Positions 20,420 through 41,077 of a DNA stretch of 64,000 nt are shown piece after piece; positions within the stretch are counted from its first letter, which is position 1; every line of letters begins with the position of its first letter. Source of the DNA: Pseudomonadota bacterium. GTDB lineage: Bacteria; Pseudomonadota; Gammaproteobacteria; Burkholderiales; Rhodocyclaceae. The translations under genes were made by a program, and so were the position numbers. The stretch is taken from the NCBI GenBank assembly GCA_018262195.1, contig JAGTRS010000006.1:1-64000 (forward strand), read 5' to 3'. The notes below the pieces were generated by a model, which was not told the origin of the DNA, searched no databases, and worked only from the letters and a program-made list of their open reading frames with translations.

Positions 20420-22576
20420 TCAGAAAACGTAGCGGGCACTGACCCCGGCCAACCAGCTCCGTCCCGGCGCCGATTCATAGAAGCGACTGTTGCTGTCGCC
20501 GACGATCACCGAACCGACGTACTGGCGGTCGAAAATATTGTCGAAGCGCAGGAAGCCACGCAGGCTGAGCGGGCCGTATTTGCGATCGATGCCGACGCGC
20601 AGGTTGGCGATGGCATAGCCCGGCGCTGCTTTCTGGAGGTTGCTGTCCTCGACATAGACCTTGCTGCGGATGATGCCTTCGACCGCGGCGTGGAAGCCGG
20701 TCGGCTGATGTTTCCAGGCCACTTCGCCAAACAGGTTCTGGGCGGCAACACCCGGCAGGCGGCTACCGGCACTGACCGCACCGGTCGAGGTGGTGAATCG
20801 CTCGGCGTAATGGGCATCAAGGTAGGTATAGGCCAGGCGACTGCTCAATTGCTCCGCCCAGCGCGTATCGAATGCCATCTCCAGACCGCGCCGCTCTGTC
20901 TTGCCAGCGTTCTGGTAGGCCGTCCGGCCACCACTGCTCGACAGCACTACCAGTTCATCCTGGGTCTTGATCTCGAACAGCGCCACATCGAGGCGGCTGG
21001 CAGCGCCGAGCATGGCCTTGAGGCCAGTTTCGTAGTGCATGCTGGTTGCCGGCTTCAGCGAGAAATTGAACGAGCCGCCGCCATCCGAATAAAACATCTC
21101 GTTGAAGGTCGGAGCCTCGAAGCCGCGCGCCGCACTGGCGTAGAAATTGACGCTGTCAGTCAGGCGGTAGAGGGCAGCGACGGTCGGCGTGGTCTTTTCA
21201 TAGCTAATGCGACCGCTGTCGTCGCCGTTGCCGGTCACCATGTAGCGGTCATCCACCTTGAAGGCGATGCGGCTATGACGCAGGCCGCCGCTGAAGGTCC
21301 AGCGCTCGCCCTGCCATTCGGCCTGAGCGTACTGATCGAAGGTCGCAACGCGATCCTCCTCGTTGCGTCGCAGGCGCCCCGTCACACCGCAAAGGTTGGC
21401 AATACAGTTGGCCGGCACACCACTACCGACAAAGTTCTCGTAGCCTTGCCGATCATCGGTGGCCTGCTCATAGTCAAAACCGACCGTGGTCGTCAGGCGA
21501 CCACCGGCCAGCCCGAAACGCCCGGTCCAGCGACCGGACAAACCGGCAAATTCGCGGTCGAAGTCGATGATGCCGCCGGACTGCTTGGCAGGCGCCTGCG
21601 CTCCGACCGGGATCGACTGGTATTGAGTGGTCGAGCGCTGCCCGGCATAGGCCGAAACCTGCACGGTGTGATCTCCAAAGCGATGCTCGTAGCTGATTCC
21701 CCCCTGCGCGTGGTCGATACTCTTGCGGGTGTCGTAAGCCAGCGCCGGGTAGTTGTTGCGAGCAGCATCCCAGGCCACACCACGCGGATTGGCCTGAAAC
21801 TCCTTCCACTGCAGGCCTTGCGGGTCCTGTGCATCCTGCCGGAAGGTGTTGGCAAGCAGCGTCAGCTTGCCATCCTGGCTCGGCCGGAAGGTGAGCTTGG
21901 CCATGGTCTGGTCGCGTTCGGCAGCACTGTGGTCGCGGTAGCCATCGGTCGCAAAACGCGAAGCATCGATGACGTAACCAATGCCCCCTGCCTCGCCTTG
22001 GGCGCTGATGTCGCTTTTCCAGGTGCCATAGCTGCCGGCGGCGAAGCTGCCTTCGACACTGGGCGCCCCCTTGCCATCCGGCGTGAACATCTGGATCACG
22101 CCGCCAGCATGGTTGCCGTAGATGGCCGACATCGGCCCGCGCATGACTTCGATCCGCTCGGCCCGGTCAAGATTGAAGGTGGCCGCCTGCCCCTGCCCAT
22201 CGGGCATCGAGGCCGGAATGCCGTCGCTGACCAGGCGAATACCTCGCACGCCAAAGGCCGAACGAGCGCCGAAACCGCGCGAGGAAATCTGAAGATCCTG
22301 CGCGTAGTTCTGACGGTTCTGCACCGTAACACCGGGCACCGAGGCAAGTGCTTCGGAAACATTGACCCGAGCCTGATCAGCGCCGATTCTGGCGGCATCA
22401 ACGACATCGACTGCGGCCGGCAGGTCGAAGCTATTGTGCTCGACGCGGCTGCCAGTCACGACGACCGAGTCCAGTGTCAGCGCAGCATCGGCCATGGCAA
22501 GACCGGAAAAAGCTGCGGCCAGCAGGCTGACAAGATGGCAAGGCCGGGCAAGTCGGGAAGGAAGGTGCTTTGTCAT
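20420..22576 (-). CDS. TonB-dependent receptor, substrate unknown
   Basis: A 718-residue outer-membrane receptor. The signal peptide ends near LAMADA, then LDSVVVTGSR (TonB box region). The plug follows: VNVSEALASVPGVTVQNRQNYAQDLQISSRGFGARSAFGVRGIRLVSDGIPASMPDGQG, then IEVMRGPMSAIYGNHAGGVIQMFT. The barrel ends in R-Y-V-F. The plug style (Q-D-L-Q-I-S-S-R-G-F) is that of FecA/OprC-like receptors rather than siderophore-only types. No ABC transporter or TonB gene is adjacent. A terminator follows at 20370-20400. It is separated from the tRNAs by a 250-bp region. Confidence 0.85.
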   Translation of the reverse strand: MTKHLPSRLARPCHLVSLLAAAFSGLAMADAALTLDSVVVTGSRVEHNSFDLPAAVDVVDAARIGADQARVNVSEALASVPGVTVQNRQNYAQDLQISSRGFGARSAFGVRGIRLVSDGIPASMPDGQGQAATFNLDRAERIEVMRGPMSAIYGNHAGGVIQMFTPDGKGAPSVEGSFAAGSYGTWKSDISAQGEAGGIGYVIDASRFATDGYRDHSAAERDQTMAKLTFRPSQDGKLTLLANTFRQDAQDPQGLQWKEFQANPRGVAWDAARNNYPALAYDTRKSIDHAQGGISYEHRFGDHTVQVSAYAGQRSTTQYQSIPVGAQAPAKQSGGIIDFDREFAGLSGRWTGRFGLAGGRLTTTVGFDYEQATDDRQGYENFVGSGVPANCIANLCGVTGRLRRNEEDRVATFDQYAQAEWQGERWTFSGGLRHSRIAFKVDDRYMVTGNGDDSGRISYEKTTPTVAALYRLTDSVNFYASAARGFEAPTFNEMFYSDGGGSFNFSLKPATSMHYETGLKAMLGAASRLDVALFEIKTQDELVVLSSSGGRTAYQNAGKTERRGLEMAFDTRWAEQLSSRLAYTYLDAHYAERFTTSTGAVSAGSRLPGVAAQNLFGEVAWKHQPTGFHAAVEGIIRSKVYVEDSNLQKAAPGYAIANLRVGIDRKYGPLSLRGFLRFDNIFDRQYVGSVIVGDSNSRFYESAPGRSWLAGVSARYVF

Positions 22577-26136: not shown

Positions 26137-26784
26137 TCAGGCCTCGAGCAGGCCGTTGCGGACCGCGACCAGCGTCAGCTCGGCGGCATTCTGCGCATTG
26201 AGCTTCTGCTTGATGTGATAAAGGTGCGTCCCGACCGTACTCGGACTGAGGCAGAAATCCTCGGCCACTTCGTTGACCGTTCGTCCACCGGCCAGCTTGA
26301 GAAAAACCGCCAGCTCCTTCTCGGTCAGCGTTTTGACCGGATTGGCCGTACCGGAAAGCTGGGAAAGCGCGACGGCCTGCGCCAGTTCGGGATCGATGTA
26401 GCGCTGATCGGCGGCCACCAGACCGACCGCACGCAGGAACTCCTCCGGCGCCGCCCGTTTGCACAGGTAGCCACGCGCCCCGAGGCGCAGGGCGCGGACC
26501 GGGACGATGTTGTCGTTGTGTGCCGAGAGCATCAGCACGCTCGCCTTCGGCTCCCAGACGAGCAGACGCTCCAGTGCCGCCAGGCCGCCGATGCCGGGCA
26601 TCGAGACGTCCATCACCACGACATCCGGATTGGTTTCGGCGTAGAGGCGAACCGCGCTTTCGCCATTCTCGGCCTCGCCCACCACCGTCGCGCCGGCCCC
26701 TTCGAGCAGCAGGCGGAAACCGAGGCGAACCACCGCGTGGTCATCCGCGAGCAGGATGCGCTTGCCTTGCAGAGACTTGTTCAT
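26137..26784 (-). CDS. NarL/LuxR-type response regulator of the lanthanide-type ADH operon
   Basis: A 215-residue regulator. The REC domain (about 9-125) has D14-D15 and phospho-acceptor D59 (VVVMDVSMPG), with the conserved Lys near 110 (L-C-K-R). The LuxR-type HTH (about 148-205: LTEKELAVFLKLAGGRTVNEVAEDFCLSPSTVGTHLYHIKQKL) binds DNA. Its start overlaps the sensor kinase stop by 4 nt, so the two form a two-component pair. MoxX/PedR2/ErbR-like regulators of PQQ alcohol dehydrogenase genes have this architecture. Last gene of a six-gene operon. Confidence 0.88.
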   Translation of the reverse strand: MNKSLQGKRILLADDHAVVRLGFRLLLEGAGATVVGEAENGESAVRLYAETNPDVVVMDVSMPGIGGLAALERLLVWEPKASVLMLSAHNDNIVPVRALRLGARGYLCKRAAPEEFLRAVGLVAADQRYIDPELAQAVALSQLSGTANPVKTLTEKELAVFLKLAGGRTVNEVAEDFCLSPSTVGTHLYHIKQKLNAQNAAELTLVAVRNGLLEA

Positions 26785-28205
26785 GCGAATTGCTCCTGAA
26801 GATGCAGGGAACGAATGTCCGGCAAATGGACAGCGATACGAAAGCCCTGACCGGCCCGGCTGGAAAATTCGAGATGGCCACCCAGCGCGGCGATGCGTTC
26901 GCCCATGCCGGTCAGCCCCAGGCCGCAGCCGGCCTGCGCCGAGGGCTTTTCTCCCCGACCACGGCCGTTGTCGGCCAGCGACAGATGCAGGCAGCCGGCC
27001 GCGCGCTCAAGACAAAACTCGACCCGGCTGGCATCGGCATGGCGGAGGACATTGGTCAGCCCTTCCTGGACGCAGCGCAAAACGGCACAGGCCAGATCGT
27101 CGGCCACCGGCGCATCGCCAATCGCCACCCGGCTGACCAGTTCGATCTCGGGATGCTGCAGGCGCCAGTTGGCGAGGTGATGATCGAGCGCCATCGCCAG
27201 CGAACCACCTACCGACGGCCGCAGACGATGCAGGATATTGCGCACGCCGTCCTGCATCTCGCCGGTCACCGCGACGATGCTCTGCGCCGGAATATGCAGC
27301 GAGGGCTCATCCGGCGTGCGCTGGACAATCGCCCCGGCCAGGGCGCGAACGGCGGTGATGCCCTGGGCCAGTTCGTCGTGCAACTCACGGGTGATCACCT
27401 GCCGCTCGGCCTGCAGACCAGCCTGCATCCGTTCGGCGACTTCGCGCTCGGTATCGAGCCTGACGTTTTCATCGACGGCCGCGCGCAGGCGGTCGGCCAT
27501 GCCATTGAAGGCATGGGAGATGCGGCCGAGTTCCGGTGTGGCGAATTGCGGCAGGCGCGTATCGAAACGGCCATGCCCCATGCGATCAAGCGCCTGCATG
27601 ATCTGGTCAAGCGGGCGCAAGGCACGGGCCAGCGCGCCGCAGGCGGCGGCATACAGGGCAAGCAGCAAGAGCATTGCCCAGCCGGCCAACGCCAGCAATT
27701 CGTCCCAGGCATCGAGAACGGCGCGCGAGGCATCGGGGTGCAGGCTGAGCTGGAAATCGTCGATGCTGAAACTACGGGTCGGCAGATCGGCCGCCAGCAG
27801 GCTGGCAAACCATGCCGGAGCCTGTCGCCCGGCCTTGTAGGTCGGCGGTGGAGAAACATGGCGCAACTCGCCGGCACCATCATGAATCTGCAACACATTG
27901 GCGCGCACCCGGCCGATGGCCGTGGCCACGCCAAGCAGCCGCTCGCCTCGCTCGGCTACCGGCAGGTTGTGCAGATCGCCGATGACGACCTTCAGCCATT
28001 GCTCCGAAACCCGGGTCGCCGCCTCGACTTCTTCGTGGATCGCGTTGCGCGTGCCGTGTAACCAGAGAGCACCAAGCACCAGCAACAGGCTGGCGGCCAG
28101 CCCGGTCAGCACCAGGCCAACGCGGGTCCGCAAGCTTGGCCGATGACTCGCACGGTGCCGCACAAAGCGGAGCAGTGCGGCGAATGGCCTATATCGCATT
28201 TTCAT
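26781..28205 (-). CDS. MoxY-like sensor histidine kinase
   Basis: A 474-residue membrane kinase. TM1 lies at about 27-48, with a periplasmic domain (about 50-165) of the LapD/MoxY type (VSEQWLKVVIGDLHNLP...SIDDFQLSLHPDASRAV). TM2 is at about 170-195, then HAMP. HisKA_3 follows with phospho-His in T-R-E-L-H-D-E-L-A-Q-G, and an HATPase_c (EGLTNVLRHADASRV, G-L-G-L-T-G-M). ATG at 28205 overlaps the receptor stop by 4 nt; a longer frame is rejected. MoxYX-type systems control methanol/ethanol quinoprotein genes. What this periplasmic domain senses is unknown; metal availability is my hypothesis. Confidence 0.88.
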   Translation of the reverse strand: MKMRYRPFAALLRFVRHRASHRPSLRTRVGLVLTGLAASLLLVLGALWLHGTRNAIHEEVEAATRVSEQWLKVVIGDLHNLPVAERGERLLGVATAIGRVRANVLQIHDGAGELRHVSPPPTYKAGRQAPAWFASLLAADLPTRSFSIDDFQLSLHPDASRAVLDAWDELLALAGWAMLLLLALYAAACGALARALRPLDQIMQALDRMGHGRFDTRLPQFATPELGRISHAFNGMADRLRAAVDENVRLDTEREVAERMQAGLQAERQVITRELHDELAQGITAVRALAGAIVQRTPDEPSLHIPAQSIVAVTGEMQDGVRNILHRLRPSVGGSLAMALDHHLANWRLQHPEIELVSRVAIGDAPVADDLACAVLRCVQEGLTNVLRHADASRVEFCLERAAGCLHLSLADNGRGRGEKPSAQAGCGLGLTGMGERIAALGGHLEFSSRAGQGFRIAVHLPDIRSLHLQEQFA

Positions 28206-30508
28206 TTGCCGCCAAACACGTAGCGCACACCCAGCCAGGCGGCACGCGGCGCGCCGGGAGCGACGAAGGTCTGGCGACGCCAGTCGTCCGGATCGGCCTG
28301 GAAGCTGCCGCCGACGAAGGGGCTTTCGGCCAGCGCAGCAGCCGTGGCGTACTTGCGGTCGAAGACGTTGTTGATCTTGGCGAAAACTTGCCAACCGCCG
28401 CCGAGTTTCGCTTCGGCATTGAGATTCAGGATGGCGTAGCCGCCGACCTTGCCCGGCCCCTCAAAGGTACGCGTGTTACCCAGCGCATCGTTAAAGGTGC
28501 CGCTCTGGTGCTGGTTGTTTTCGTTGCCGCGGGCGTACTGGCTGGAGAAAGCCTGCACGTCGCCGCCGACGCGCAGCCAGCCAGTGGCACGCCAGGCCAG
28601 GCCGAACTTGAGGCTGTGCTCTGGCAGGCCGGTCAGGCGATGGCCCTTCTTCACGAAGATTTCGTCATCCTGGCCGCCGCTGGTGCATTCCGCCGCCGTG
28701 CCACGCGAGCTGTTGTTTTCGGCCAGCAGGCAGGCATCGGAGCGGAAGGTGGCGTGCAGCCAGTGGTAGCTGGCGAACCAGTCGATAGCCTTCAGGCTGC
28801 CGTTGAGGCCGAGCTCCAGGCCCTGGCGCTGCGTCTTGCCGTAATTGGTGAAATAGCCGGCGCTGGTCGAGGTGCCGACAAAGAGGATGTCATCGGTGTT
28901 CAGCGTGCGATAGACCCCGGCATTCCACTGGGTGTTGCCAACCAGGTTGCCGCGCAGGCCGGCTTCGACGGTGCGCGACACGACCTGCTTGAGGTAGGGG
29001 TCGGCAGCCATCGAATTGGGCAGGGTGCACGGGTTGGCCGGGTCGGCGCAGCCGAGTTCGATCGGCGTCGGGATGCGGTTGCCCTGGCTGAAACCGGCGT
29101 AGGCATTGAGCGCCGGCAGCACTTGCCAGCTAAGACCAATGGCCGGATTGAGCTTGCGGTAGTGGTGGTCGCCATCGAGATTGGGCGCTGTCAGCGTCAA
29201 TTCGTCATGCGTCGTTACCCGGCTCATGTTGTAGCGGGCCGAGGCAGTCAGGTGCAGCGCCGGGGTGATGGACCAGGTATCGGTGGCAAACAGGCCGGCG
29301 GTGCGTGTCGTGCCCCACAGGCGGTTTTCTTCTTCGATATCGAGCAGGTTGTCGATGCTGCGCGAGTCGGTCAGCGCCCCCAGTTGCTGCGTCTGCACGA
29401 AGCGCATGCGGGCCTGATCCCAGGAGGCGCCGACGGCCAGTTGATGCGCCTGAGTACTCAGGTTCCACTGCACAGCGGCGCCGGTGCCGAGCTGGCGGGT
29501 GCTGGTCCGGTTGTGGGCACCGTTCGGCGTGTTCGGATCGGTCGCCCAGTCGTTCTCGTAGTCGTCATTCATGTCGCCGTTCAGCGTGCGGGTGCGCGTT
29601 TTGCGGACATAGGCACTGCCGCTCAGGCTCTGCGTGTCGCTGAGCCACAGCTTGCCGCTGAGGGCGAGCTGGGTCAGGTCGTTGCGGGTCTCGTCGGGAC
29701 GGGTGAAGATCGCCTCGCGACGCTCAGAGAGCATGGATTGCGGCACCAGCCCGTTACCGATCAGCCGGGTTCGTGCCTGGGTCAACGTCAGGTCTGCCTC
29801 GCCGGCACTGTTGCGGAAGGACAGCTTGCCGAAGAACTGCTTGACGTCGGAGGGCGAGTAGTCGCGCCAGCCATCCTCGCGGAACCAGTCGCTGGCGACA
29901 TACCAGCCGAGCGTGCCGTTGTTGCCGCCGTATTCCAGCTCGGTGTTGCTGCGCCCGAAGCTGCCGCCGGACAACTCTATCTTGCCGCCCGGATGCGAGA
30001 AACCGCTCTTGGTGCGGATGGCCAGCGCCCCACCCAGGGTGTTGAGGCCAAAGGCCGGGTTGGAGCCGGGAATCAGGTCGATGCCGGCAATGGCCGAATG
30101 CGGGATCAGGTCCCAGTTCACCGTATCGCCAAAGGGTTCATTGACGCGCACGCCATCAACATAGATCGACAGCCCCTGCGCCGTGCCGAGCAGCGGCGAG
30201 GCGGTGAAGCCGCGGTAGTTGAGGTCGGCCTGATAGGGATTGCCCTGGATTTCGTTGAGCGTGACGCCCGGCACCTGGCGCTGCAACTGCTCGGCGATGT
30301 TCAGGCTTTCGATTTCTTCCAGCCGACGATCATCGAGCGACTGCACGTTGGCCGGCAGATGCAGGCGCGGCACGCCGATACCGGCCAGCGGGGTGGTGCC
30401 GACCACTTCAACAGTCGCGGTAGTAACAACCGGTTCGGCCCAGGCCGGGGCAAAGGCGGCGGCAATGGCAAGCGCCAGCAGGGAACGTTGGGGGCTTTGT
30501 CTCTTCAT
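28202..30508 (-). CDS. TonB-dependent receptor of the lanthanide-type ADH operon
   Basis: A 768-residue outer-membrane receptor. The signal peptide ends at F-A-P-A-W-A-E-P. The plug (about 30-160) has NIAEQLQRQVPGVTLNEIQGNPYQADLNYRGFTASPLLGTAQGLSIYVDGVRVNEPFG and IPGSNPAFGLNTLGGALAIRTKSG. The long barrel ends in R-Y-V-F-G-G-K. Cys pairs in extracellular loops (CADPANPC; DACLL...AAEC) are notable. It is locked by 4-nt overlaps between tonB and the sensor kinase and is divergent from a lanthanide-type dehydrogenase. By analogy to receptors near xoxF (LutH) it may import a lanthanide chelate; an iron or copper chelate is the alternative. Confidence 0.85.
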   Translation of the reverse strand: MKRQSPQRSLLALAIAAAFAPAWAEPVVTTATVEVVGTTPLAGIGVPRLHLPANVQSLDDRRLEEIESLNIAEQLQRQVPGVTLNEIQGNPYQADLNYRGFTASPLLGTAQGLSIYVDGVRVNEPFGDTVNWDLIPHSAIAGIDLIPGSNPAFGLNTLGGALAIRTKSGFSHPGGKIELSGGSFGRSNTELEYGGNNGTLGWYVASDWFREDGWRDYSPSDVKQFFGKLSFRNSAGEADLTLTQARTRLIGNGLVPQSMLSERREAIFTRPDETRNDLTQLALSGKLWLSDTQSLSGSAYVRKTRTRTLNGDMNDDYENDWATDPNTPNGAHNRTSTRQLGTGAAVQWNLSTQAHQLAVGASWDQARMRFVQTQQLGALTDSRSIDNLLDIEEENRLWGTTRTAGLFATDTWSITPALHLTASARYNMSRVTTHDELTLTAPNLDGDHHYRKLNPAIGLSWQVLPALNAYAGFSQGNRIPTPIELGCADPANPCTLPNSMAADPYLKQVVSRTVEAGLRGNLVGNTQWNAGVYRTLNTDDILFVGTSTSAGYFTNYGKTQRQGLELGLNGSLKAIDWFASYHWLHATFRSDACLLAENNSSRGTAAECTSGGQDDEIFVKKGHRLTGLPEHSLKFGLAWRATGWLRVGGDVQAFSSQYARGNENNQHQSGTFNDALGNTRTFEGPGKVGGYAILNLNAEAKLGGGWQVFAKINNVFDRKYATAAALAESPFVGGSFQADPDDWRRQTFVAPGAPRAAWLGVRYVFGGK

Positions 30509-31203
30509 GTTGTTTTTCTGAGTTTGTAGTTGATTGGAACGATGACCTGGATTTCGCTGCTTTCCAGCGACTCGGGCAATGGCGGCAGGCTGCCATGGCC
30601 TTCGAGCATGGCCAGCGCGTGCTGGTCGAGCACATCGAAGCCACTGGAACGATCGAGTACGACGCCGAGCAGGTTGCCCTTGCGCGCCACTTTCAGACGC
30701 AGGCGGACTTCGCCTTCCCAGCCACGCATGGCCGCGATGCGCGGGTATTCCTGATGGCGGGCCAGAAGCTCAGTCAGGCGCTGGCGATAGCTGTCGAGCA
30801 GATCGCTTTGCGGCCGTTGGGGGGCCGCGGCCTGGGCCGGCGGAGCTGCCGGCATGGCAACAGCCCCGCCGGTTTCCGCCGCCACCACGGCTGGCGAGGC
30901 GACGGATTGGGCCGGCACATTGGCCGGCCCGGCAGTCTGCGTAACGTGCGGAGCCGACCGTTGCTCAGCGCGCTGTGGATTCTGCCGGGCCTTCTGGGGG
31001 ACGGTTGCCGGCGCCGGCGAAGGCATGGCAGCGGCAACGGGTCCGGATTCGGAAACATTGAGCAGGCGAAGCGAGGCAACGATAGTCGGCAAGGTGGCCG
31101 GCACATGCTGGCGCTGCCACGACATGAAGGCGAACAGCGTGGCATGGAGAACGACCGACAGGCCGAACAGCAGCCAGAATTTGCGATGGCTTCTGGAATT
31201 CAT
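30505..31203 (-). CDS. TonB-family energy transducer
   Basis: A 232-residue protein with an N-terminal cytoplasmic Arg/Lys stretch, one TM anchor (FWLLFGLSVVLHATLFAFM, about 9-27), a Pro/Ala-rich periplasm-spanning linker (about 45-135), and a C-terminal TonB domain (YPRIAAMRGWEGEVRLRLKVARKGNLLGVVLDRSSGFDVLDQHALAMLEG). It transmits proton-motive energy from ExbBD (encoded elsewhere) to the receptor whose start it overlaps by 4 nt. A dedicated TonB implies that the receptor's import function matters to this operon. Confidence 0.9.
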   Translation of the reverse strand: MNSRSHRKFWLLFGLSVVLHATLFAFMSWQRQHVPATLPTIVASLRLLNVSESGPVAAAMPSPAPATVPQKARQNPQRAEQRSAPHVTQTAGPANVPAQSVASPAVVAAETGGAVAMPAAPPAQAAAPQRPQSDLLDSYRQRLTELLARHQEYPRIAAMRGWEGEVRLRLKVARKGNLLGVVLDRSSGFDVLDQHALAMLEGHGSLPPLPESLESSEIQVIVPINYKLRKTT

Positions 31204-32138
31204 CGATTCTCCCCTTCCAGCGCTTCCTGTTCGGCGGCCGGAAAAAGATGGCCGACCGAGCGGCGGTATTCGCTGGCCGCGACCGGCAAATTGGCGAACT
31301 CGGGAGGCAGCGGGCGGGCCAGCACTTCGTTCATGTCCAGCCCGGCCTTTGCCGCATCGCGCATGGCGGCAGTCAGCCAGGTCAGCCAGGCGCGAGTCTG
31401 GCGGATCGGTGCGGCATCTGCCGTCGGCGCGCCATGACCGGGCAACAGCGCCTTGAAGCCGGGCTCACGGGTCAGCGCGTCGAGCTGGTCGAGCGCCTTG
31501 AGCCAGTGCGCAACGTCGGCATGCGGCGTGGTCGGGGCGCGCCCGTTGAAGACAAGGTCGCCGGCGAACAGCACGCCGCTCGCTTCGTCGACGATGACGA
31601 GATCGGCCCCGGTATGGCCGTCGAGGGCCACCAGGCGCAGCTTGCGGCCGGCCACCTCAATATTGCCGGCAGCCAGCGTCTTGCCCGGGATCTGGACTTC
31701 GGTCCCTTTCATCCAGTCGCCACTCATCCGGAACAGGTTTTCGGCGAAGGCATTGCCCTCGGCCGCTATTCCGTTGCGCGTCTCGGCCAGCGCACCAATG
31801 GGCACATCGGCGAAGGCCTGGTTGCCAAGAAAATGATCGGGGTGATGATGGGTGTTGATGACCAGCGCCACCGGCTTGTCGGTCACCGCCGCAATGGCCC
31901 GGCGCATCTGCTGGCCGTAGCGCAGCGAGGGGCCGCTGTCGATGACGATCACGCCGTTCGGCGCAACGATGAAGGCGGTGTTGACGATATTGCCGCCGTT
32001 GCTGGTGTCGAAATCCTCGGTCTTGCCGATGAAGGCGTAGACGTCTTTGGCGATGGGACGGGCACTCAGGCGATAGTCGAAATCGGCCGCACCAAGCTGG
32101 CTGGCGACGAACAGCAGCAGAAAAGCCAGCCGCCTCAC
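31200..32138 (-). CDS. Quinoprotein-associated metallo-beta-lactamase-fold hydrolase
   Basis: A 312-residue exported protein (signal ending LGAADF). The zinc motif T-H-H-H-P-D-H-F (about 103-110), a further His in L-D-G-H-T-G-A-D, Asp in F-A-G-D-L-V-F, and G-H-G-A-P complete a two-metal MBL site. This matches the family called quinoprotein relay system zinc metallohydrolase, found beside PQQ dehydrogenases and SoxYZ-like carriers. The substrate is not established; a thioester on the carrier is a plausible guess. It overlaps both neighbours by 4 nt. Confidence 0.85.
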   Translation of the reverse strand: MRRLAFLLLFVASQLGAADFDYRLSARPIAKDVYAFIGKTEDFDTSNGGNIVNTAFIVAPNGVIVIDSGPSLRYGQQMRRAIAAVTDKPVALVINTHHHPDHFLGNQAFADVPIGALAETRNGIAAEGNAFAENLFRMSGDWMKGTEVQIPGKTLAAGNIEVAGRKLRLVALDGHTGADLVIVDEASGVLFAGDLVFNGRAPTTPHADVAHWLKALDQLDALTREPGFKALLPGHGAPTADAAPIRQTRAWLTWLTAAMRDAAKAGLDMNEVLARPLPPEFANLPVAASEYRRSVGHLFPAAEQEALEGENR

Positions 32139-32905
32139 GGCGCGATCCTCGCCTTGAAGGCATTGCCGTTGTTGTCGCGCCCGCTGGCTTCGACCGGACC
32201 ATCGGCCTTGTCACGCTGCAAGGTGAACACCGGGTTTTCGCTGACCGGTTCATAGGTCTGCACCCGCATCAGGCGCTGGCCGGCTGCATCGGCAATACTG
32301 ATTTCTTCCAGATAAAACGCCGGGGTGCCGGCGACCAGACCGGTATCCATCGGATGCACGATGCGCAGGCGAACACGCCCGGCGTTCGGCCCTTCGCTCC
32401 ACTGGCGACCACTTACTTCATTAAGCCGCTGCTGCCAATCCTTCGAAGCGCCAGCCGCCGAAGGTGCCGTACAGCCGCCACCCACTGTCGTCACCCAGGT
32501 ACCGCCGACATGCCAGACACCATCGGCTGTCCGCACCGCCGCCCGTACCGGTGTCGATTGCTGTAGCTTGACGCGAAAGCCGAGATAGGCCGGGGCGCTT
32601 TCGGGGAAGAAGCGCAGCACCTGCACGATGGGATTGAAATCGGCAAAGACCACGACCTCGACCACACCGGGCAGCGCCGTGGCGTCGACCGTCACCGGCA
32701 CCTGCATCGGGTTTTCCGCCGTCGATGGCGCGATGACCTTGACCCGGGGATCGAACAGCACCGGCGCCCCGGCCAGAAAAGCCTTCTGCATTTCCGACCA
32801 GCGGGCCGAAGCGAGCGGATCACCGCCTTCGCGCAGCGCTGCAGCTTCGGCCGGCGGCATCAGGGCCGCCAGGGCAATCGCTGCAATGGTCAGTGGGTAT
32901 TTCAT
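32135..32905 (-). CDS. Quinoprotein dehydrogenase-associated SoxYZ-like carrier
   Basis: A 257-residue exported protein (signal AALMPPAEAA). The first half is SoxY-like and ends in a Gly-rich swinging arm with a single Cys (V-G-G-G-C-T-A-P-S). The second half is SoxZ-like (RVRLRIVHPMDTGL, VFTLQRDKADG). In SoxY the arm Cys carries a covalent sulfur substrate. The fused SoxYZ form is a known companion of PQQ dehydrogenases and the following MBL protein. Start at 32905 (MKYPLTIAAIAL); a longer frame to 33082 is unsupported. First gene of the six-gene operon. Confidence 0.88.
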   Translation of the reverse strand: MKYPLTIAAIALAALMPPAEAAALREGGDPLASARWSEMQKAFLAGAPVLFDPRVKVIAPSTAENPMQVPVTVDATALPGVVEVVVFADFNPIVQVLRFFPESAPAYLGFRVKLQQSTPVRAAVRTADGVWHVGGTWVTTVGGGCTAPSAAGASKDWQQRLNEVSGRQWSEGPNAGRVRLRIVHPMDTGLVAGTPAFYLEEISIADAAGQRLMRVQTYEPVSENPVFTLQRDKADGPVEASGRDNNGNAFKARIAP

Positions 32906-33328
32906 CTTGTCTCGCTCCGTTTTTGCCACGTGGGCTGTTTGCGAGAATGGTTCGCAAGCCGCGTGCCAAACCCCGGGCAATTTCGGCAAAGCGCCTATTG
33001 GCAGGCATTCCCGGCCTGGACCACGACAATTCCGAACGAACTGAACAACCAGACTGTGCAACTTTGGAGCAGCTGATGACATTTGAAGCAGGCATCGGCC
33101 AGCCGACTGTTCAACCGTGACAAAACCCGATTTCCCCTGCCGCCCCCGGCCAACAGGCGAAAGCCGTATTCAGCCCGGGCATGGCACAGCCCTTGCAGAA
33201 CGGGTTCCCTGCCAGCGAGTCGATTCAGGGAAAGGAAGGCGACTCGCCGGTGCGTCAGTCCAATCCGCAGTCCACGCCCAGCGCGACCTGCGGATCAGGA
33301 AACATTGGATAACCAAGGAGACAAATCC
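32906..33328. promoter_or_regulatory. Divergent control region between the two arms of the PQQ island
   Basis: 423 bp with no coding frame of credit. It must contain promoters both for the leftward six-gene operon and for the rightward lanthanide-type dehydrogenase. An imperfect inverted repeat TTGCGAG-n5-TTCGCAA lies at 32939-32957, close to the leftward start. AAGGAG at 33314-33319 is the dehydrogenase RBS. The regulator binding site is not identified with certainty. Confidence 0.55.
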
Positions 33329-35110
33329 ATGCACAGTCATACCCCCAAGCGGAGTGCCCTCACACTTGCGCTGATCACTGCTGCCTTCGTGGCCGGCAGC
33401 CCGGCTCAGGCCGCCGTCACCGACGCCGACATCCTGAACGATGCCAAGACCACCGGCGACGTCGTCAGCTTCGGCCTCGGCACTCAGGGCCAACGCTTCA
33501 GCCCGTCTACACAGATCAACACCAAATCCGTGAAGAACCTGGTTCCGGCCTGGTCGATGTCCTTCGGCGGCGAGAAGCAGCGCGGCCAGGAATCGCAGCC
33601 GGTCATCCACAACGGCAAGATGTTCGTTACCGCTTCCTACAGCCGCCTGTTCGCCGTTGATGCCAAGTCCGGCAAGAAGCTGTGGAAGTACGAGCACCGC
33701 CTGCCGGACGGCATCATGCCCTGCTGCGATGTGATCAACCGCGGCGCCGCTCTGTACGACAATCTGGTCATCTTCGCCACGCTGGACGCCCAGCTGGTGG
33801 CTCTGAACCAGGACACCGGCAAGGTCGTCTGGAAGGAAAAGCTCGGTGATTACGCTGCCGGCTACTCCGCCACCGCCGCCCCGATCATCGCCAAGGGCAA
33901 GCTGATCACCGGCGTTTCCGGCGGCGAGTTCGGCATCGTCGGCCGCATCGACGCCCGCGACCCGCTGACCGGCAAGCTGGTTTGGACCCGTCCGACCGTT
34001 GAAGGCCACATGGGTTATGCCTTCGACAAGGAAGGCAACAAGACCGAAAACGGCATCTCCGGCACCACCAACGCCACGTGGACCGGCGACCTCTGGCAGA
34101 CCGGCGGCGCAGCCACCTGGAACGGCGCTACCTATGATCCGGAAACCAACCTGATCTTCGCCGGTACCGGCAACCCGGCCCCGTGGAACAGCCACCTGCG
34201 CCCCGGCGACAACCTGTTCTCGTCCTCCACCGTCGCCATCGACGCCGACACCGGCAAGATCGCCTGGCATTACCAGAACACCCCGCACGACGGCTGGGAC
34301 TTTGACGGCGTGAACGAATTCGTTTCCTTCGACTACAAGGATCCGAAGACGGGCAAGCTGATCAAGGCCGGCGGCAAGGCTGACCGCAACGGTTTCTTCT
34401 TCGTGAACGACCGCACCAACGGCAAGCTGATCAATGCCTTCCCCTTCGTCAAGAAAATCACCTGGGCAACGGGCTACAACCTTGAAACCGGCCGTCCGAA
34501 CTACATCGAAGAAGGCCGCCCGGGCGACCCGACGCAAGGTGCTGACGGCAAGAAGGGCAAGGTTGTCTTCTCGGCCCCATCCTTCCTTGGCGGCAAGAAC
34601 CAGCAGCAAATGGCCTACAGCCCGCAGACCGGCCTCTTCTACGTGCCGGCCAACGAGTGGTCGATGGACATCTGGAACGAACCAGTTTCCTACAAGAAGG
34701 GCGCTGCTTACCTCGGCGCCGGCTTCACCATCAAGGCCATCCACGACGACCACATCGGCGTGCTGCGCGCGATGGACCCGCAGACCGGCAAGATCGTCTG
34801 GGAAAACAAGAACTACGCGCCGCTGTGGGGCGGCGTCCTGACCACCGCTGGTGGCCTGGTGTTCTACGGCACCCCGGAAGGCTTCCTGAAGGGGGTTGAT
34901 GCCAAGACAGGCAAGGAACTGTGGTCCTTCCAGACCGGCACCGGCATCGTTGCACCGCCGGTCAGCTGGGAACAGGATGGCGAGCAGATGATCGCCGTGA
35001 CGACCGGCTGGGGCGGCGCCGTGCCGCTGTGGGGCGGCGACGTGGCCAAGCGCGTGAACTTCCTCGAACAGGGCGGTTCCGTCTGGGTCTTCAAGCTACA
35101 CAAGGGCTAA
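33329..35110 (+). CDS. PQQ alcohol dehydrogenase, lanthanide type (PedH/ExaF-like)
   Basis: A 593-residue periplasmic eight-bladed quinoprotein. Start at 33329 (RBS AAGGAG; signal AGSPAQAA). The adjacent-Cys disulfide is C132-C133 ([10 protein letters not shown]). Metal ligands are Glu in S-G-G-E-F and Asn in G-T-G-N-P-A-P-W. The catalytic Asp is D324 in W-D-F-D-G, followed two residues later by D326, the extra Asp that coordinates lanthanides in XoxF and PedH. Trp-docking repeats (T-G-K-x-V-W) recur. It oxidises primary alcohols/aldehydes to a c-type cytochrome. Monocistronic, divergent from the TonB/two-component operon; UUCG hairpin follows. Confidence 0.9.
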
Positions 35111-36495: not shown

Positions 36496-36978
36496 TTACT
36501 TTGCCGCCACCCGGCTTTCCACGAATAGCTGGATCGCCCAGGCCAGTTCCTGCTTCAAGACGTTTTCCCATGGCGGCATGTGGGTGACGCCGAGAATGAT
36601 CTTGCCGTTGCGCACGCTTTTCGCGAAGTAGGCATCGTTGTCGCGCTGGCACCACGCTTTAAGTTCGGCATCGGCGATGCGGCGGCAGCCACGATCCAGG
36701 TTGCGCAGGTCAGGCGCCGGGGCAGCGTTGGTGCTGGCATCGGCGCCGTGGCAGCGGGCACAGGCCTGGTTGTAGGCGTCGCGTCCGATGGCGACGGCCT
36801 CGCTGGCTGGTGCTTGATGGCGATATGGGTTGGCAGCGAGCCAGCTCGTACCAAGTTGCGGCAGGCGGCTGGCGTCAACTTGGGGAGCGATGGCAATTTC
36901 GTTGGCAGTCGCGGGAACAGACAGCAGGATGCCGGCAATGACCAGGACGGGAAGCAGATAGCGGCGCATGGCGATCAC
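36496..36978 (-). CDS. pedF: Cytochrome c-550 PedF
   Basis: A 160-residue periplasmic c-type cytochrome (signal ending P-A-T-A-N). Heme site C-A-R-C-H at about residue 74; distal Met probably in T-H-M-P-P-W. Additional Cys pair (G-C-R-R, W-C-Q-R) is typical of PedF. PedF-type cytochromes accept electrons from PQQ ethanol dehydrogenases. The start overlaps the pentapeptide gene by 4 nt; Met at residue 4 is an alternative start. It lies on the same strand as and just downstream of the calcium-type dehydrogenase. Confidence 0.85.
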   Translation of the reverse strand: MIAMRRYLLPVLVIAGILLSVPATANEIAIAPQVDASRLPQLGTSWLAANPYRHQAPASEAVAIGRDAYNQACARCHGADASTNAAPAPDLRNLDRGCRRIADAELKAWCQRDNDAYFAKSVRNGKIILGVTHMPPWENVLKQELAWAIQLFVESRVAAK

Positions 36979-37541
36979 CAGTCGGCCGGGCAGCCGGTGC
37001 AGCCCTCGAAATCCGCATCCTGAAAAACGGCGAAACGGCGGAACGTGCCGGTCAGGTCGGCACCGCGCAGATTGACGGTAAACATCTTGATCTCCTGCAG
37101 ATTGGCATTGGTCAGTCTGGCCCCCCGGAACCAGGCGAAGTTGGCCTTGGCCGCTTCGAGATTGGCGCCGGTCAGATCGGCGTTGCTGAAATCGGTGCGG
37201 AACAGCCTGGCAAACTCAAGGTCGGCCCCGACCAGCCTGGCTCCCCGGAAAGTAGCGGTGGGGGCTGCGGCCTTGGTGAGCCGCGCGGCGGTGAGATCGG
37301 CTCCGTCGAAATTAGCACCGGCCAGGTTGGCTCCCGTCAGGTTGGCACGGGCCAGATTGGCGCCTGAAAAATCAGCTCCGGCCAGGTTCTTGCCGGCGAG
37401 GTTGGCGTGGCGCAGATCGGCACCACGGCACTGGGTGTGCGGCCAGATGGCACAGCCGTTGATGACCGGCGGATCGCCGGATTCCTGGGCGAATGCCGCG
37501 GGAAGGTGGAGAAGCAGGGCAATGATGAGCAGGCGTCGCAT
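36975..37541 (-). CDS. Exported pentapeptide-repeat protein
   Basis: A 188-residue protein with a signal peptide (MRRLLIIALLLHLPAAFAQ; start at 37541, longer frames unsupported). About 20 A(D/N)LxX repeats follow (DLRHANLAGKNLAGADFSGANLARANLTGANL...), giving a right-handed quadrilateral beta-helix. Two Cys near each end (INGC, TQC; FEGCTGCPADW). It forms a unit with pedF through a 4-nt overlap. Pentapeptide proteins with PQQ ethanol dehydrogenase are recurrent, but the function is unknown. Confidence 0.8.
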   Translation of the reverse strand: MRRLLIIALLLHLPAAFAQESGDPPVINGCAIWPHTQCRGADLRHANLAGKNLAGADFSGANLARANLTGANLAGANFDGADLTAARLTKAAAPTATFRGARLVGADLEFARLFRTDFSNADLTGANLEAAKANFAWFRGARLTNANLQEIKMFTVNLRGADLTGTFRRFAVFQDADFEGCTGCPADW

Positions 37542-37704
37542 CGTGGACAGTTCCCGGTGAGGCGCGCCTTCCGCCATCGGCGGAGAGCACGTGTGGATGG
37601 CATTGCGGCGAAAAAGTGACAGGGCCGGTGTCCATGCAGCACCGGCCCCGCCAGGCACAACGCCTGGGGCGGGGAAAGGTCGCCCGAGGCGCGGGGGAAA
37701 ACGC

Positions 37705-39576
37705 TCAGTTCTTAAGCGACTTCGGCAGCTTGAACACCCACATCGAGCCACCCTGCGTCACCTGCTTGGTCAGGTCGGCCATGTCGCCGCCCCACAGCGG
37801 CACGGCGCCGCCGTAGCCGGACTGGATGCCGAGGAACTGCTCGCCGTCCATTTCCCAGGTAATCGGCACCGAGACCACGCCGGAACCGGTCTGGAATTTC
37901 CACAGCTCCTTGCCGTTCTTCGCGTCGAAGGCCTTGACGTAGCCGTCCGAGGTGCCGGTGAAGACGAGGCCGCCAGCGGTGGTCAGGGTGCCGGCCCAGA
38001 GCGGGAATTTCTCCTTGTGCTCCCAGACGATCTTGCCGGTCTTCGGGTCCATGGCGCGCAGGGTGCCGACGTGGTCATCGAACAGACGCTTGATGCGGAA
38101 GCCCTGACCGAGGTAGGCGGAGCCGGCCTTGTAGGTCAGCTTTTCAGTCCAGTAGTCCATCGCCCAGTGGTTGGCCGGGATATAGAACAGCTCGGTCTGC
38201 GGGCTGTAGCTCATCGGCATCCAGTTGGTGCCACCGAGGAAGGGTGGCGAGACGAAGATCGACTCACCCTTGTCGGCGCCCTCCTTCGGCTTGGGCGGAT
38301 GCTGGCCTTCGACGATGTTCGGCTTGCCGGTCTGCAGGTTCCAGCTCTTCGCCCAGGTGATGCCCTCGACGAAGGGCCAGGCGCCGATCAGCGAAGTCGG
38401 CTTGTTGGGATAGCCGGCGCCGTTGGTCAGCTTTTCGCGGTCGGTGACGAAAAAGTAACCGTTGCGATCGGCATGGGCCGAGGCCTTGATCAGCTTGCCA
38501 GTCTTCGGATCCTTGTACTCGAAGAGCACCACCGAGTTGTTGCCGGAGAAGTCCCAGGCATCGTTCGGGGTGTGCTGGAAGAAGCCTTTCAGCTCACCGG
38601 TGCTGGCATCGACATAGGCCTGGCCGGAGGTGAAAAGGCTGTCCCAGTTGCGCGGGTCGTCGCCTTCCTTGGTCCGGTGCCAGGTGTTCCACGGGGCCGG
38701 ATTGCCGGTGCCGATCACCACCATGTTCTTGTCCACGTCGTAGCTGGCGGTCTGCCACGGGGCGCCGCCGCCATGGTTCCAGGCATCGACCTTCTTGCCG
38801 TCCGGACCTTCCGGCCAGCTTGGCGCCTTGGCGTCGCCGGTCGGCGTGCTGTCCTTGCCGTTAAGGCGGCCCATGTGGCCTTCGACCATCGGGCGGGCCC
38901 AGACTTCTTCGCCGGTATCCGGATCGCGGGCAAACAGGTAGCCGACAACGCCGAACTCGTCACCCGACGAGCCGTGCACCAGCAGCACCTTGCCGCTCTT
39001 CTGGTCCTTCACGACGAACGGCGCGCCGGTCATCGTGTAGCCGATCTTGTGGTCGCCGAATTTCTTCTTCCAGACCACCTTGCCGGTGTCCTTGTTGAGG
39101 GCAACAACGGTGGCATCGAGCGTGCCGAAGTAGATCTTGTCGCCGTAGATGGCGGCGCCGCGGTTGATCACGTCGCAACAGGGGCGGATGTCTTCGGGCA
39201 GGCGGGCTTCGTATTCCCACAGGCGCTTGCCGGTGCGGGCATCGACGGCAAAAATGCGCGAATAGGAAGCGGTGACGTAGATCACGCCGTCGTGCACCAG
39301 CGCCTGCGCTTCCTGGCCGCGCTGCTTTTCGCCGCCGAAGGAGAAGCTCCAGGCCGGCACCAGGTGATCGACGTTCTTGGTATTGACCTTGGCCAGCGTG
39401 CTGTGGCGCTGCGCCTTCAGACCGAGGCCGTAGGACAGCACGTCCTGCGTCGTCTTGTCGTCGTTGAGAATATCTTCCCAACTCACCGTCTTGGATGCCA
39501 TCGCCGGCGAGCAGAATGTCGTAGCAACCAGCGCTGCGATGAGGGTCTGGCGGGGATTGAACCGGGTTGATTTCAT
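37705..39576 (-). CDS. exaA: PQQ alcohol dehydrogenase, calcium type (ExaA/PedE-like)
   Basis: A 623-residue periplasmic quinoprotein. Start at 39576 (AGGAGA upstream), signal C-S-P-A-M-A-S. It contains the adjacent Cys pair [10 protein letters not shown], Asn in [11 protein letters not shown], and catalytic D342 in W-D-F-S-G. S344 stands where lanthanide enzymes have Asp, so Ca2+ use is expected. It oxidises ethanol and related alcohols, passing electrons to PedF-type cytochrome encoded downstream. Strong codon bias toward C/G-ending codons suggests high expression. Divergent from a MoxY-like kinase gene about 208 nt away. Confidence 0.9.
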   Translation of the reverse strand: MKSTRFNPRQTLIAALVATTFCSPAMASKTVSWEDILNDDKTTQDVLSYGLGLKAQRHSTLAKVNTKNVDHLVPAWSFSFGGEKQRGQEAQALVHDGVIYVTASYSRIFAVDARTGKRLWEYEARLPEDIRPCCDVINRGAAIYGDKIYFGTLDATVVALNKDTGKVVWKKKFGDHKIGYTMTGAPFVVKDQKSGKVLLVHGSSGDEFGVVGYLFARDPDTGEEVWARPMVEGHMGRLNGKDSTPTGDAKAPSWPEGPDGKKVDAWNHGGGAPWQTASYDVDKNMVVIGTGNPAPWNTWHRTKEGDDPRNWDSLFTSGQAYVDASTGELKGFFQHTPNDAWDFSGNNSVVLFEYKDPKTGKLIKASAHADRNGYFFVTDREKLTNGAGYPNKPTSLIGAWPFVEGITWAKSWNLQTGKPNIVEGQHPPKPKEGADKGESIFVSPPFLGGTNWMPMSYSPQTELFYIPANHWAMDYWTEKLTYKAGSAYLGQGFRIKRLFDDHVGTLRAMDPKTGKIVWEHKEKFPLWAGTLTTAGGLVFTGTSDGYVKAFDAKNGKELWKFQTGSGVVSVPITWEMDGEQFLGIQSGYGGAVPLWGGDMADLTKQVTQGGSMWVFKLPKSLKN

Positions 39577-39784: not shown

Positions 39785-41077
39785 ATGGATCTACGAAAGC
39801 GACTGGTCACCTGGCTAGGCGGTTTGCTCGCCGGCCTGATGCTGCTGGCAGTGACGATCAATCTCCACTCTCTGCGCGGCGATATCCAGGCTGAAGTGGC
39901 CGCCTCGGAGCAACTGGTCACGGTGCTGCTCAAGGCCGGAGATGCCCGGGCCAGCAGCAAGGCCGAGCTGGAAGCCCTGCTCACGAATGCCCGCTTGCGC
40001 CACCTGAGCATCCACCTCGGTGAAACGCCGCCCAAAGCCGACGAAAACCCCCACTGGCTCGCCCCCCTGCTCGGCATTGCGACCAGCGCCACACCTGCCC
40101 AGAGCATGCGCCTCGGTGACCATACCCTGAGCATCGCCCCCAACCCGAACTCCGAGATTGAGGAGCGCCTGGGCGACACTGTTCGAATTTGCATCACCCT
40201 GTTGCTCTATTCTGGAGCAACCCTGCTCGTTGCCTGGTGGTCGGCCGATCGCGCGCTGACCCCGGTGCGGGAGCTGGAAGCCGGCCTGCAACGCCTGGCC
40301 GACAACGCCCCCGACGCCGCGATGCCGCCTTTTGCCCTGCGCGAATTTCGCCGCGTCGCCAGCGCCATTGACGCGCTGGCCGGCAAACTGGAGGAATCCC
40401 GCGCAGCCCAGCAACAGCTCGCCCGCCAGCTCATCGCCGTGCAGGAAGAAGAACGCCACGCTCTGGCAAGGGAATTGCATGACGAGATGGGGCAAACGCT
40501 GACCGCCATCGGGGTTACCGCCGCCTTTCTCGAACGCAACGCGACACGCCTGGCACCGCCAAGCATTGTTGAATGCGCCGAGGATCTGCGGCGCGACGTG
40601 CGCACCAGCGGCGAACAATTACGCGCCATGCTCAAGCGCCTGCGGCCACATGGTCTGGATGCGCTGGGCCTGGCCAGCGCCCTGCGCGAACTGGTGGCCA
40701 GCTGGCAGCAGCGCGGATCGGACATCGCGTTTGACCTCGAGATGCCAGCGGAACTGCCTGAGCTGGATGAAGCGACAGCCCTGGTGGTCTACCGCGTGGT
40801 GCAGGAAGGGCTGACCAATGTGGTTCGCCATAGCGAAGCACGGCACTGCCGGATCCGCATTGAACTGGCACGAAATACGCTGTACCTGAGCGTGGAGGAC
40901 GACGGGAAAGGTCTGCCCGAGGCCGGCCCGGCCCGTCGCGGCGGCCTGCTCGGCATGGCGGAAAGGCTGGAAATGGCAGGGGGAAGTTTGAAGATCGAGA
41001 GCAACGCGACAACCGGGCTGCAGCTTAGGGCCCGCTTGCCGATAGGCAGAAAAGAACAACAGGAGGAGCAAGCATGA
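39785..41077 (+). CDS. MoxY-like sensor histidine kinase (second)
   Basis: A 430-residue membrane kinase. TM1 (about 8-28), a LapD/MoxY-type periplasmic domain (about 30-125, ending LGDHTLSIAPNPNSEI), TM2 (about 133-153), HAMP-like linker, HisKA_3 with phospho-His in A-R-E-L-H-D-E-M-G-Q-T, and HATPase_c (EGLTNVVRHSEARH, GGLLGMAERL). Its layout mirrors the kinase at 26781-28205, so the two are probably paralogues. It overlaps its regulator by 4 nt and is divergent from the calcium-type dehydrogenase. Comparable to PedS2/MoxY. Confidence 0.88.
   Translation: MDLRKRLVTWLGGLLAGLMLLAVTINLHSLRGDIQAEVAASEQLVTVLLKAGDARASSKAELEALLTNARLRHLSIHLGETPPKADENPHWLAPLLGIATSATPAQSMRLGDHTLSIAPNPNSEIEERLGDTVRICITLLLYSGATLLVAWWSADRALTPVRELEAGLQRLADNAPDAAMPPFALREFRRVASAIDALAGKLEESRAAQQQLARQLIAVQEEERHALARELHDEMGQTLTAIGVTAAFLERNATRLAPPSIVECAEDLRRDVRTSGEQLRAMLKRLRPHGLDALGLASALRELVASWQQRGSDIAFDLEMPAELPELDEATALVVYRVVQEGLTNVVRHSEARHCRIRIELARNTLYLSVEDDGKGLPEAGPARRGGLLGMAERLEMAGGSLKIESNATTGLQLRARLPIGRKEQQEEQA

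Follow-up and report, generated by a model that had tools for sequence, protein, structure and literature searches.

Six genes on the minus strand of a 64,000-nucleotide stretch of DNA from a Rhodocyclaceae bacterium (positions 1 to 64,000 of contig JAGTRS010000006.1, assembly GCA_018262195.1; this whole stretch is called the window below) probably encode a LutH-type outer-membrane lanthanide uptake module that brings its own TonB protein and its own two-component sensor and stands in a cluster resembling the ped locus of Pseudomonas putida. This reading draws on the homology of the receptor to LutH, on best hits in both search directions, on co-occurrence with PedH-type dehydrogenases and on the lanthanide-type enzymes that neighbour the receptor. 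It bears out in part a preliminary description of the DNA, which had proposed a metal uptake and signalling module, perhaps for a lanthanide chelate.

The operon and its ped-like surroundings

Each of the six genes is a clean open reading frame (ORF), and they follow one another as SoxYZ-like carrier, metallo-beta-lactamase-fold (MBL) hydrolase, TonB, receptor, kinase and regulator (Table 1); coordinates and gene order had been given correctly in the preliminary description, as the ORFs, NCBIfam and Pfam confirm. The earlier claim of five identical 4-nt ATGA overlaps holds for the length and not for the identity. Read directly, all five junctions are 4-nt overlaps, four of them ATGA, while SoxYZ/MBL is GTGA because GTG is the start codon of the MBL gene; ATGA at all five junctions is thereby ruled out. 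Such overlaps are common in tight operons and are therefore unremarkable by themselves. Across 19 loci, window included, the overlap is kept at SoxYZ>MBL in 14 of 15, at MBL>TonB in 5 of 9, at TonB>receptor in 11 of 13, at receptor>kinase in 9 of 18 and at kinase>regulator in 13 of 18. The first two genes both score above the cut-offs of their families (TIGR04557 and TIGR04558) and form a known quinoprotein relay pair; such a pair, like the lanthanide switch, has already been described for the P. putida ped cluster (PMC12997753). The draft genome that holds the window comprises 4.23 Mb in 89 contigs, at 99.8% completeness and 9.95% contamination.

The operon lies divergent from a lanthanide-type dehydrogenase, as had been described: the PedH/ExaF-like gene on the plus strand finds its closest solved match in 6zcv, a quinoprotein ethanol dehydrogenase, and the motif HDGWDFD is identical in the aligned stretch. 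Lanthanide-type pyrroloquinoline quinone (PQQ) alcohol dehydrogenases carry an extra aspartate two residues past the active-site aspartate. The WDFD of the PedH-like enzyme is taken here to be this motif, and the WDFS of the second enzyme in the window to mark the calcium (Ca) type, so that the divergent dehydrogenase is predicted to be of the lanthanide type by its Asp-x-Asp motif. Taken with its PedF-like cytochrome, its pentapeptide protein and the second kinase/regulator pair, the two dehydrogenases make the locus mirror the ped cluster of P. putida. Between the PedH-type and PedF-like genes lies an ORF of 246 amino acids (35297-36037, plus strand), lipoprotein-like by eye, for which no counterpart was found in 60 other neighbourhoods and no NCBIfam family.

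Table 1. Features of the window, with the evidence for each assignment
Feature	Coordinates	Strand	Evidence
SoxYZ-like carrier, fused, gene 1 of the operon	32135..32905	-	NCBIfam TIGR04557 224.7 bits (cut-off 140); Pfam SoxY + SoxZ
Quinoprotein relay system zinc metallohydrolase 1 (MBL fold), GTG start	31200..32138	-	TIGR04558 430.5 bits (cut-off 300)
TonB protein of the operon	30505..31203	-	TIGR01352 54.9 bits (cut-off 27.1); Pfam TonB_C
TonB-dependent receptor, most likely LutH family, plug + barrel	28202..30508	-	LutH homology, best-hit searches, conservation, AlphaFold2 (AF2) model
Sensor histidine kinase, HAMP + HisKA_3 + HATPase	26781..28205	-	Pfam, conserved residues, AF2 model
NarL/LuxR-type response regulator	26137..26784	-	Pfam Response_reg + GerE
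PedH/ExaF-like PQQ alcohol dehydrogenase, HDGWDFD, divergent from the operon	33278..35110	+	TIGR03075 779 bits; 6zcv/6zcw 853/843 bits
PedF-like cytochrome c550	36496..36978	-	TIGR04494 111.7 bits, just below cut-off 122; recurs with the cluster
Pentapeptide-repeat protein (repeat by eye), PedD counterpart by position	36975..37751	-	ORF; found repeatedly with a PedF-like gene on one side and a Ca-type dehydrogenase gene on the other
Ca-type PQQ alcohol dehydrogenase, PedE-like, motif NDAWDFS	37705..39576	-	TIGR03075 716 bits; motif in ORF
Second histidine kinase + NarL-type regulator, divergent from the Ca-type dehydrogenase	39785..41721	+	NCBIfam/Pfam; recurring position
PqqU-type PQQ receptor, separate gene downstream of the operon	20420..22576	-	671 bits to NF041535 (cut-off 1200); PQQ-site residues

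Kinship of the operon receptor with LutH

Pfam (E<=0.001) reports a plug and a TonB-dependent barrel only in the operon receptor, and the AF2 model (mean predicted local distance difference test score, pLDDT, 84.9) and the fold search agree with this architecture; among solved structures no sequence relative was found at E<=0.001. The protein carries a C487-x6-C494 loop and the motifs NGDxND and RGNENN. Both cysteines of the loop (ELGCADPANPC-LPN, within residues 483-510) are invariant in alignments of 34 and 40 rows, and the C-x6-C loop is also present in six of six plasmid relatives checked, which makes it a possible family marker.

The kinship with LutH is seen where relatives of the receptor stand beside lanthanide-linked genes. 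On plasmid pMNOD02 of Methylobacterium nodulans, a relative obtained in the plasmid receptor search precedes genes for a response regulator and for a protein with four EF hands and DPDxDGT-like loops, presumably lanmodulin-like; this EF-hand protein is matched at E<=1e-8 in 22 of the 398 genomes of a phylum sample. Three of 20 neighbourhoods around such EF-hand/lanmodulin-type matches show a receptor that matches the receptor queries, each time adjoining the EF-hand gene; every one of the three falls within the family of the operon receptor (528, 523 and 446 bits), with M. nodulans pMNOD02 as a fourth case. One of these loci (L332) runs from LutA/LutB/LutE/LutF-type genes (TIGR03863, 03866, 03864 and 03861, all over cut-off; substrate-binding protein, beta-propeller, ATPase and permease of an ATP-binding cassette (ABC)/PQQ alcohol dehydrogenase system) to the receptor and on to the EF-hand gene, and because this is the lut gene arrangement, its receptor is LutH by position. 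The name LutH stands here for this receptor, to which LutH of Methylorubrum extorquens is likened by description only.

The operon receptor shares 32% identity (375 bits) with the L332 LutH; its best segment against the PqqU-type receptor of the window scores 76 bits. Searched back into the window genome, LutH recovers the operon receptor in two pieces (190.9 + 181.7 bits), followed by a next match of 32.7, and the operon receptor finds two relatives only in the genome of L332 (G292), one in the lut cluster and one unlinked copy (C9). A relative of the operon receptor is present in every one of the 15 genomes searched (14 at >=116 bits, G244 at 66) out of the 22 in the sample that have a lanmodulin-like match, in a comparison confined to lanmodulin-positive genomes. 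In a tree restricted to rows with >80% coverage and >300 bits, 44 operon-type and 13 PqqU-type receptors each occupy one side of a branch supported at 100/100, and in a tree with outside receptors (reading frame taken from the match, L344 excluded as a fragment) three PqqU and nine other receptors fall together against the remainder (96/92). Judged by its sequence, the operon receptor is most likely a member of the LutH-type family. The tree with outside receptors also includes a third receptor of the window (7301-9466, minus strand), which is not of the operon receptor's kind and which, with a binding-protein-like gene alongside (6268-7281), is by eye probably part of a siderophore system.

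Co-occurrence with lanthanide-type dehydrogenases

Among 150 genomes of the family, the operon-type receptor (E<=1e-30) is present in 48 and a PedH-type enzyme (>=66% identical to that of the window, with G056 and G095 resting on partial genes) in 52. Both occur together in 44 genomes, the receptor without PedH in four, PedH without the receptor in eight and neither in 94, so that the receptor accompanies 44 of the 52 PedH-positive versus 4 of the 98 PedH-negative genomes. Receptor orthologues in genomes lacking a lanthanide-type dehydrogenase had been named in advance as the finding that would speak against the proposal; of the four carriers among 98, three have another PQQ dehydrogenase at E<=1e-100, and the fourth is taken up below.

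The surroundings of the receptor point the same way. The nearest PQQ dehydrogenase is of the lanthanide type in 28 of 45 family stretches with the receptor (window included) and in 30 of the best 80 named loci, which were drawn from a longer list; its motif was unreadable in two cases in each set. Seven plasmid regions hold a relative of the receptor, and three of them, from Burkholderia multivorans, Variovorax boronicumulans and Sphingobium indicum (the last adjoining a SoxYZ-MBL pair), show a PQQ dehydrogenase within 8 kb, in each case with the DxD motif. On the M. nodulans plasmid, methanol dehydrogenase subunit and cytochrome genes lie ~11 kb from the receptor; a receptor match on an M. 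fujisawaense plasmid and a lanM match on a plasmid of M. extorquens CM4 gave no useful context.

That the protein is instead a receptor for an iron or copper chelate, recruited to the cluster for instance through an interplay of iron with lanthanide supply or through the metal need of the partner cytochromes, is unlikely. Iron complexes are bound by most of the solved receptors in its fold list, the rare-earth switch of P. putida is modulated by iron (PMC6839425) and a locus in Ideonella lies near methanobactin genes, yet the presence of the receptor tracks the PedH-type dehydrogenase, the nearest PQQ dehydrogenase is lanthanide-type in 58 loci versus Ca-type in 6 (two locus sets that share some genomes), and a homologue has an EF-hand/lanmodulin-type gene as its neighbour within a lut cluster.

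PQQ supply and the second receptor

The preliminary description had left the PqqU-type receptor of the window unconnected to the operon. It lies 5.6 kb from the operon receptor, which, if this neighbour goes unnoticed, could pass for a PQQ importer. The PqqU-type protein scores below the curated cut-off of its family (Table 1); 10 of 11 examined PQQ-site positions are identical to E. coli PqqU, the eleventh (Y99) is a permitted Phe, and all three positions of the PqqU signature, the equivalents of Y/F/W99, R304 and R365 (PMC12124388), are in place. By these residues it is likely a PQQ scavenger. The window draft genome yielded no PqqC match and no PqqE above the cut-off; as the search thus recovered no gene for PQQ synthesis, the cofactor is probably scavenged by way of this nearby receptor. 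PqqC is over cut-off, the criterion used for PedC as well, in 36 of the 150 family genomes, including two from the strain's own genus; three weaker matches were excluded, one of which is a contig-end fragment in G089. Among PedH-positive genomes, a PqqU-type receptor is present in 15 of the 17 without PqqC (the exceptions are G089, with its fragment, and G095) and in 33 of the 35 with PqqC, and so is not restricted to auxotrophs.

It is improbable that the operon receptor is a second importer of PQQ, or of a PQQ-metal complex, for the same dehydrogenases. Its top fold match is PqqU with PQQ bound, its top NCBIfam match by E-value is PqqU as well, if a weak one (NF041535, 114.7 bits, cut-off 1200), the genome seems unable to make PQQ, and metal co-transport has been modelled for some PqqU variants (PMC12124388). 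At the signature positions, however, the profile alignment places Leu107, Thr304 and Phe370, with no aromatic residue at or beside position 107; Arg305 and Arg369 stand one residue off, where a register slip could matter, and neither is invariant in the family. A signature-bearing PqqU-type receptor is already at hand, the two receptor types split at full support in the tree, and among PedH-positive genomes the operon-type receptor is equally frequent with pqqC (30/35) and without it (14/17). A role as PQQ importer was rejected on the lack of the signature and on this independence of pqqC.

PedC and the site of sensing

The lanthanide ABC permease PedC is over cut-off in 13 of the 150 family genomes, all of them PedH-positive. 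In the window genome no PedC over cut-off was found, so the PedA1A2BC transporter of a ped cluster was not recovered, and a search for a lanmodulin-like match was likewise negative. The 52 PedH-positive genomes divide into 38 with the receptor only, 7 with PedC only, 6 with both and 1 with neither (p 9e-5, phylogeny ignored); PedC and the operon-type receptor are mostly complementary. At the edge of the window (63350-64000; also L340:1351-3159) a PedA2-like beta-propeller (220 bits versus a cut-off of 287) lies beside a substrate-binding protein; PedB and PedC were not among the eight ORFs scanned around it.

The AF2 model of the kinase confidently predicts an alpha/beta domain of ~80 residues between two long N-terminal helices, and this domain should be periplasmic. 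Invariant acidic residues are located on or near both helices (E58, E59, D158, D165 and D168). Among the 50 fold matches listed, those that could be placed are mostly kinase cores and thus say nothing on the signal; a hint of a LapD/MoxY periplasmic domain appeared in one of seven kinases scanned (L216, E 0.12). Because PedC is not found over cut-off, lanthanide sensing is probably periplasmic, and the metal need not enter the cytoplasm via PedC.

Conservation of the gene order

The gene order, proposed earlier as a unit whose conservation should be searched for, recurs. All six genes follow one another in 7 of 60 other neighbourhoods of the family (L087, L088, L089, L094, L100, L101 and L102), of which 44 had been chosen for the receptor and 16 for SoxYZ, and in 14 of the best 80 named loci (L208-L217, L219, L220, L224 and L242), among them Dechloromonas strains recorded as isolates (L208, L213 and L217). 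Since selection in either set required the receptor or SoxYZ, these counts are not frequencies. The receptor of Dechloromonas denitrificans is about 74% identical to that of the operon. In six further family loci the order lacks a TonB match (L093, L095, L106, L120, L121 and L122), and L125 has the operon without kinase and regulator; as neighbours were identified by their resemblance to genes of the window, an absent TonB may simply have escaped detection. The six-gene order is more than chance. Outside the six-gene loci the receptor often stands beside another two-component pair, and in Methylobacillus and Methylophilus it is followed, by eye, by an NtrC-like gene. In Stutzerimonas kunmingensis (L235), a relative of Pseudomonas, a LutH-family receptor and a two-component pair lie ~3.6 kb from pentapeptide, PedE-like, PedF-like and SoxYZ-like genes.

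Four family loci (L090, L091, L124 and L126) hold TonB, receptor, kinase and regulator as a unit without SoxYZ-MBL, and this shared operon is what could suggest a FecA-type surface signalling transducer to the kinase in place of a transporter. An N-terminal STN domain is the defining feature of FecA-type signalling; Pfam reports none in the operon receptor, and on this ground a FecA-type transducer was rejected. The partner is moreover a two-component pair and not a sigma/anti-sigma couple, and LutH mutants are impaired in La uptake (PMC7391723), so that a transducer is very improbable. A ped cluster into which an unrelated generic receptor was inserted in one lineage is equally far-fetched and disfavoured. 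It would fit three loci (L135, L140 and L141) with TonB, kinase and regulator and no operon-type receptor in the operon (in L140 a PqqU gene then follows), whose genomes hold a relative of the receptor elsewhere; against it, the receptor is found again at its place in the operon in several genera of the family sample as well as in named loci of Dechloromonas, Azonexus and Denitromonas, the last without a TonB match, and relatives accompany quinoproteins in Burkholderia, Sphingobium and Variovorax.

Observations against a lanthanide role

The reading as a lanthanide uptake module has to be set against several observations that weigh against it. One genome (G022) carries the receptor and has no PQQ dehydrogenase at E<=1e-100. 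The stretch around the receptor shows no PQQ dehydrogenase in 12 of the 45 family cases and in 45 of the best 80 named loci, the nearest one is Ca-type in three family and three named loci, and four of the seven plasmid regions have none within 8 kb of the receptor. On a plasmid of Ideonella dechloratans (L289), the relative has its own two-component pair, and MbnP/MbnM methanobactin-type genes and a second receptor lie ~3.3 kb from it. The PqqU fold match described above belongs here as well. The unlinked copy in G292 scores slightly above the lanmodulin-linked LutH, so the reciprocal best match holds for the family and not for a single gene, and the 20 lanthanide-linked rows form one side of a branch with a support of only 38/78, L014 falling between, a value owed to this one very long row. 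When the receptor is required to lie strictly in the operon, PedC is present in 1 of 19 versus 12 of 33 genomes (p 0.018), a weaker trend in a set of 19 chosen by eye from neighbourhood maps. Related genomes do not give independent counts, and the p values ignore phylogeny. TonB receptors also switch substrate readily, and 32% identity cannot fix the ligand.

Relation to known systems

With the lut system of M. extorquens (PMC7391723) the operon shares the receptor family, the tie to lanthanide-type quinoproteins and, beside relatives of the receptor, a lanmodulin-like gene. It differs in that the window genome has no PedC/LutF permease over cut-off and no lanmodulin-like match, and in that the receptor shares an operon with TonB, kinase, regulator and SoxYZ-MBL beside PedH and not XoxF. 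The ped cluster of P. putida KT2440 likewise combines PedH-like and PedE-like enzymes with a PedF-like cytochrome, a pentapeptide protein, a SoxYZ carrier, a zinc hydrolase and a kinase with LuxR-type regulator (PMC12997753; PMC6839425); KT2440 has PedA1A2BC and no LutH homologue, whereas the window locus has the receptor and TonB and no PedC over cut-off. The outer-membrane route of lanthanides in P. putida is called unresolved there (PMC12997753). The PqqU importer (PMC12124388) shares with the operon receptor its fold and its service to quinoproteins, and differs in the binding-site signature, which is found in the other receptor of the window. LanA of Methylotuvimicrobium buryatense, compared by description, is a receptor needed for the lanthanide switch (PMC12482762; PMC6839425) and is reported to share <20% identity with its M. 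extorquens counterpart (PMC6839425). A specific TonB-dependent receptor and a TonB-like protein have been reported as conserved with lanthanide-dependent methanol dehydrogenases (Keltjens 2014 and Wu 2015, per PMC6839425), so that the general link of receptor and TonB is already in print, but for methanol dehydrogenases. No paper describing the six-gene operon was found in searches of the open-access literature. Every part of the operon is of a known kind; the combination, its spread outside methylotrophs and the complementarity with PedC appear to be new, as they were not found in the open-access literature searched.

Proposed mechanism and significance

From the gene content and order, the homologies, the co-occurrence and the active-site motif, the following scheme can be drawn. 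The locus would serve ped-like periplasmic alcohol oxidation, the lanthanide branch having an outer-membrane supply line of its own. The LutH-family receptor would take the lanthanide, probably chelated, into the periplasm with energy from the TonB of the operon, while PQQ would be scavenged through the nearby PqqU-type receptor, and lanthanide and PQQ would be loaded into the divergent PedH-type dehydrogenase. The operon kinase may sample the periplasm, and its NarL-type partner may set the expression of the operon, of PedH or of both in the manner of the PedS2/PedR2 switch; the SoxYZ-MBL pair is the usual accessory of such dehydrogenases. A more far-reaching version, which is put forward tentatively and is somewhat doubtful, is that the module is independent of the cytoplasm: LutH-type receptor, own TonB and periplasm-sensing kinase would replace the PedABC/LutAEF type of import and sensing, with lanthanide and PQQ gathered via two receptors and assembled in the periplasm.

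The locus offers a testable candidate for the outer-membrane passage of lanthanides in PedH-carrying bacteria, and cultured Dechloromonas have close relatives of it. The complementarity with PedC suggests that two alternative strategies may exist for metal supply and sensing.

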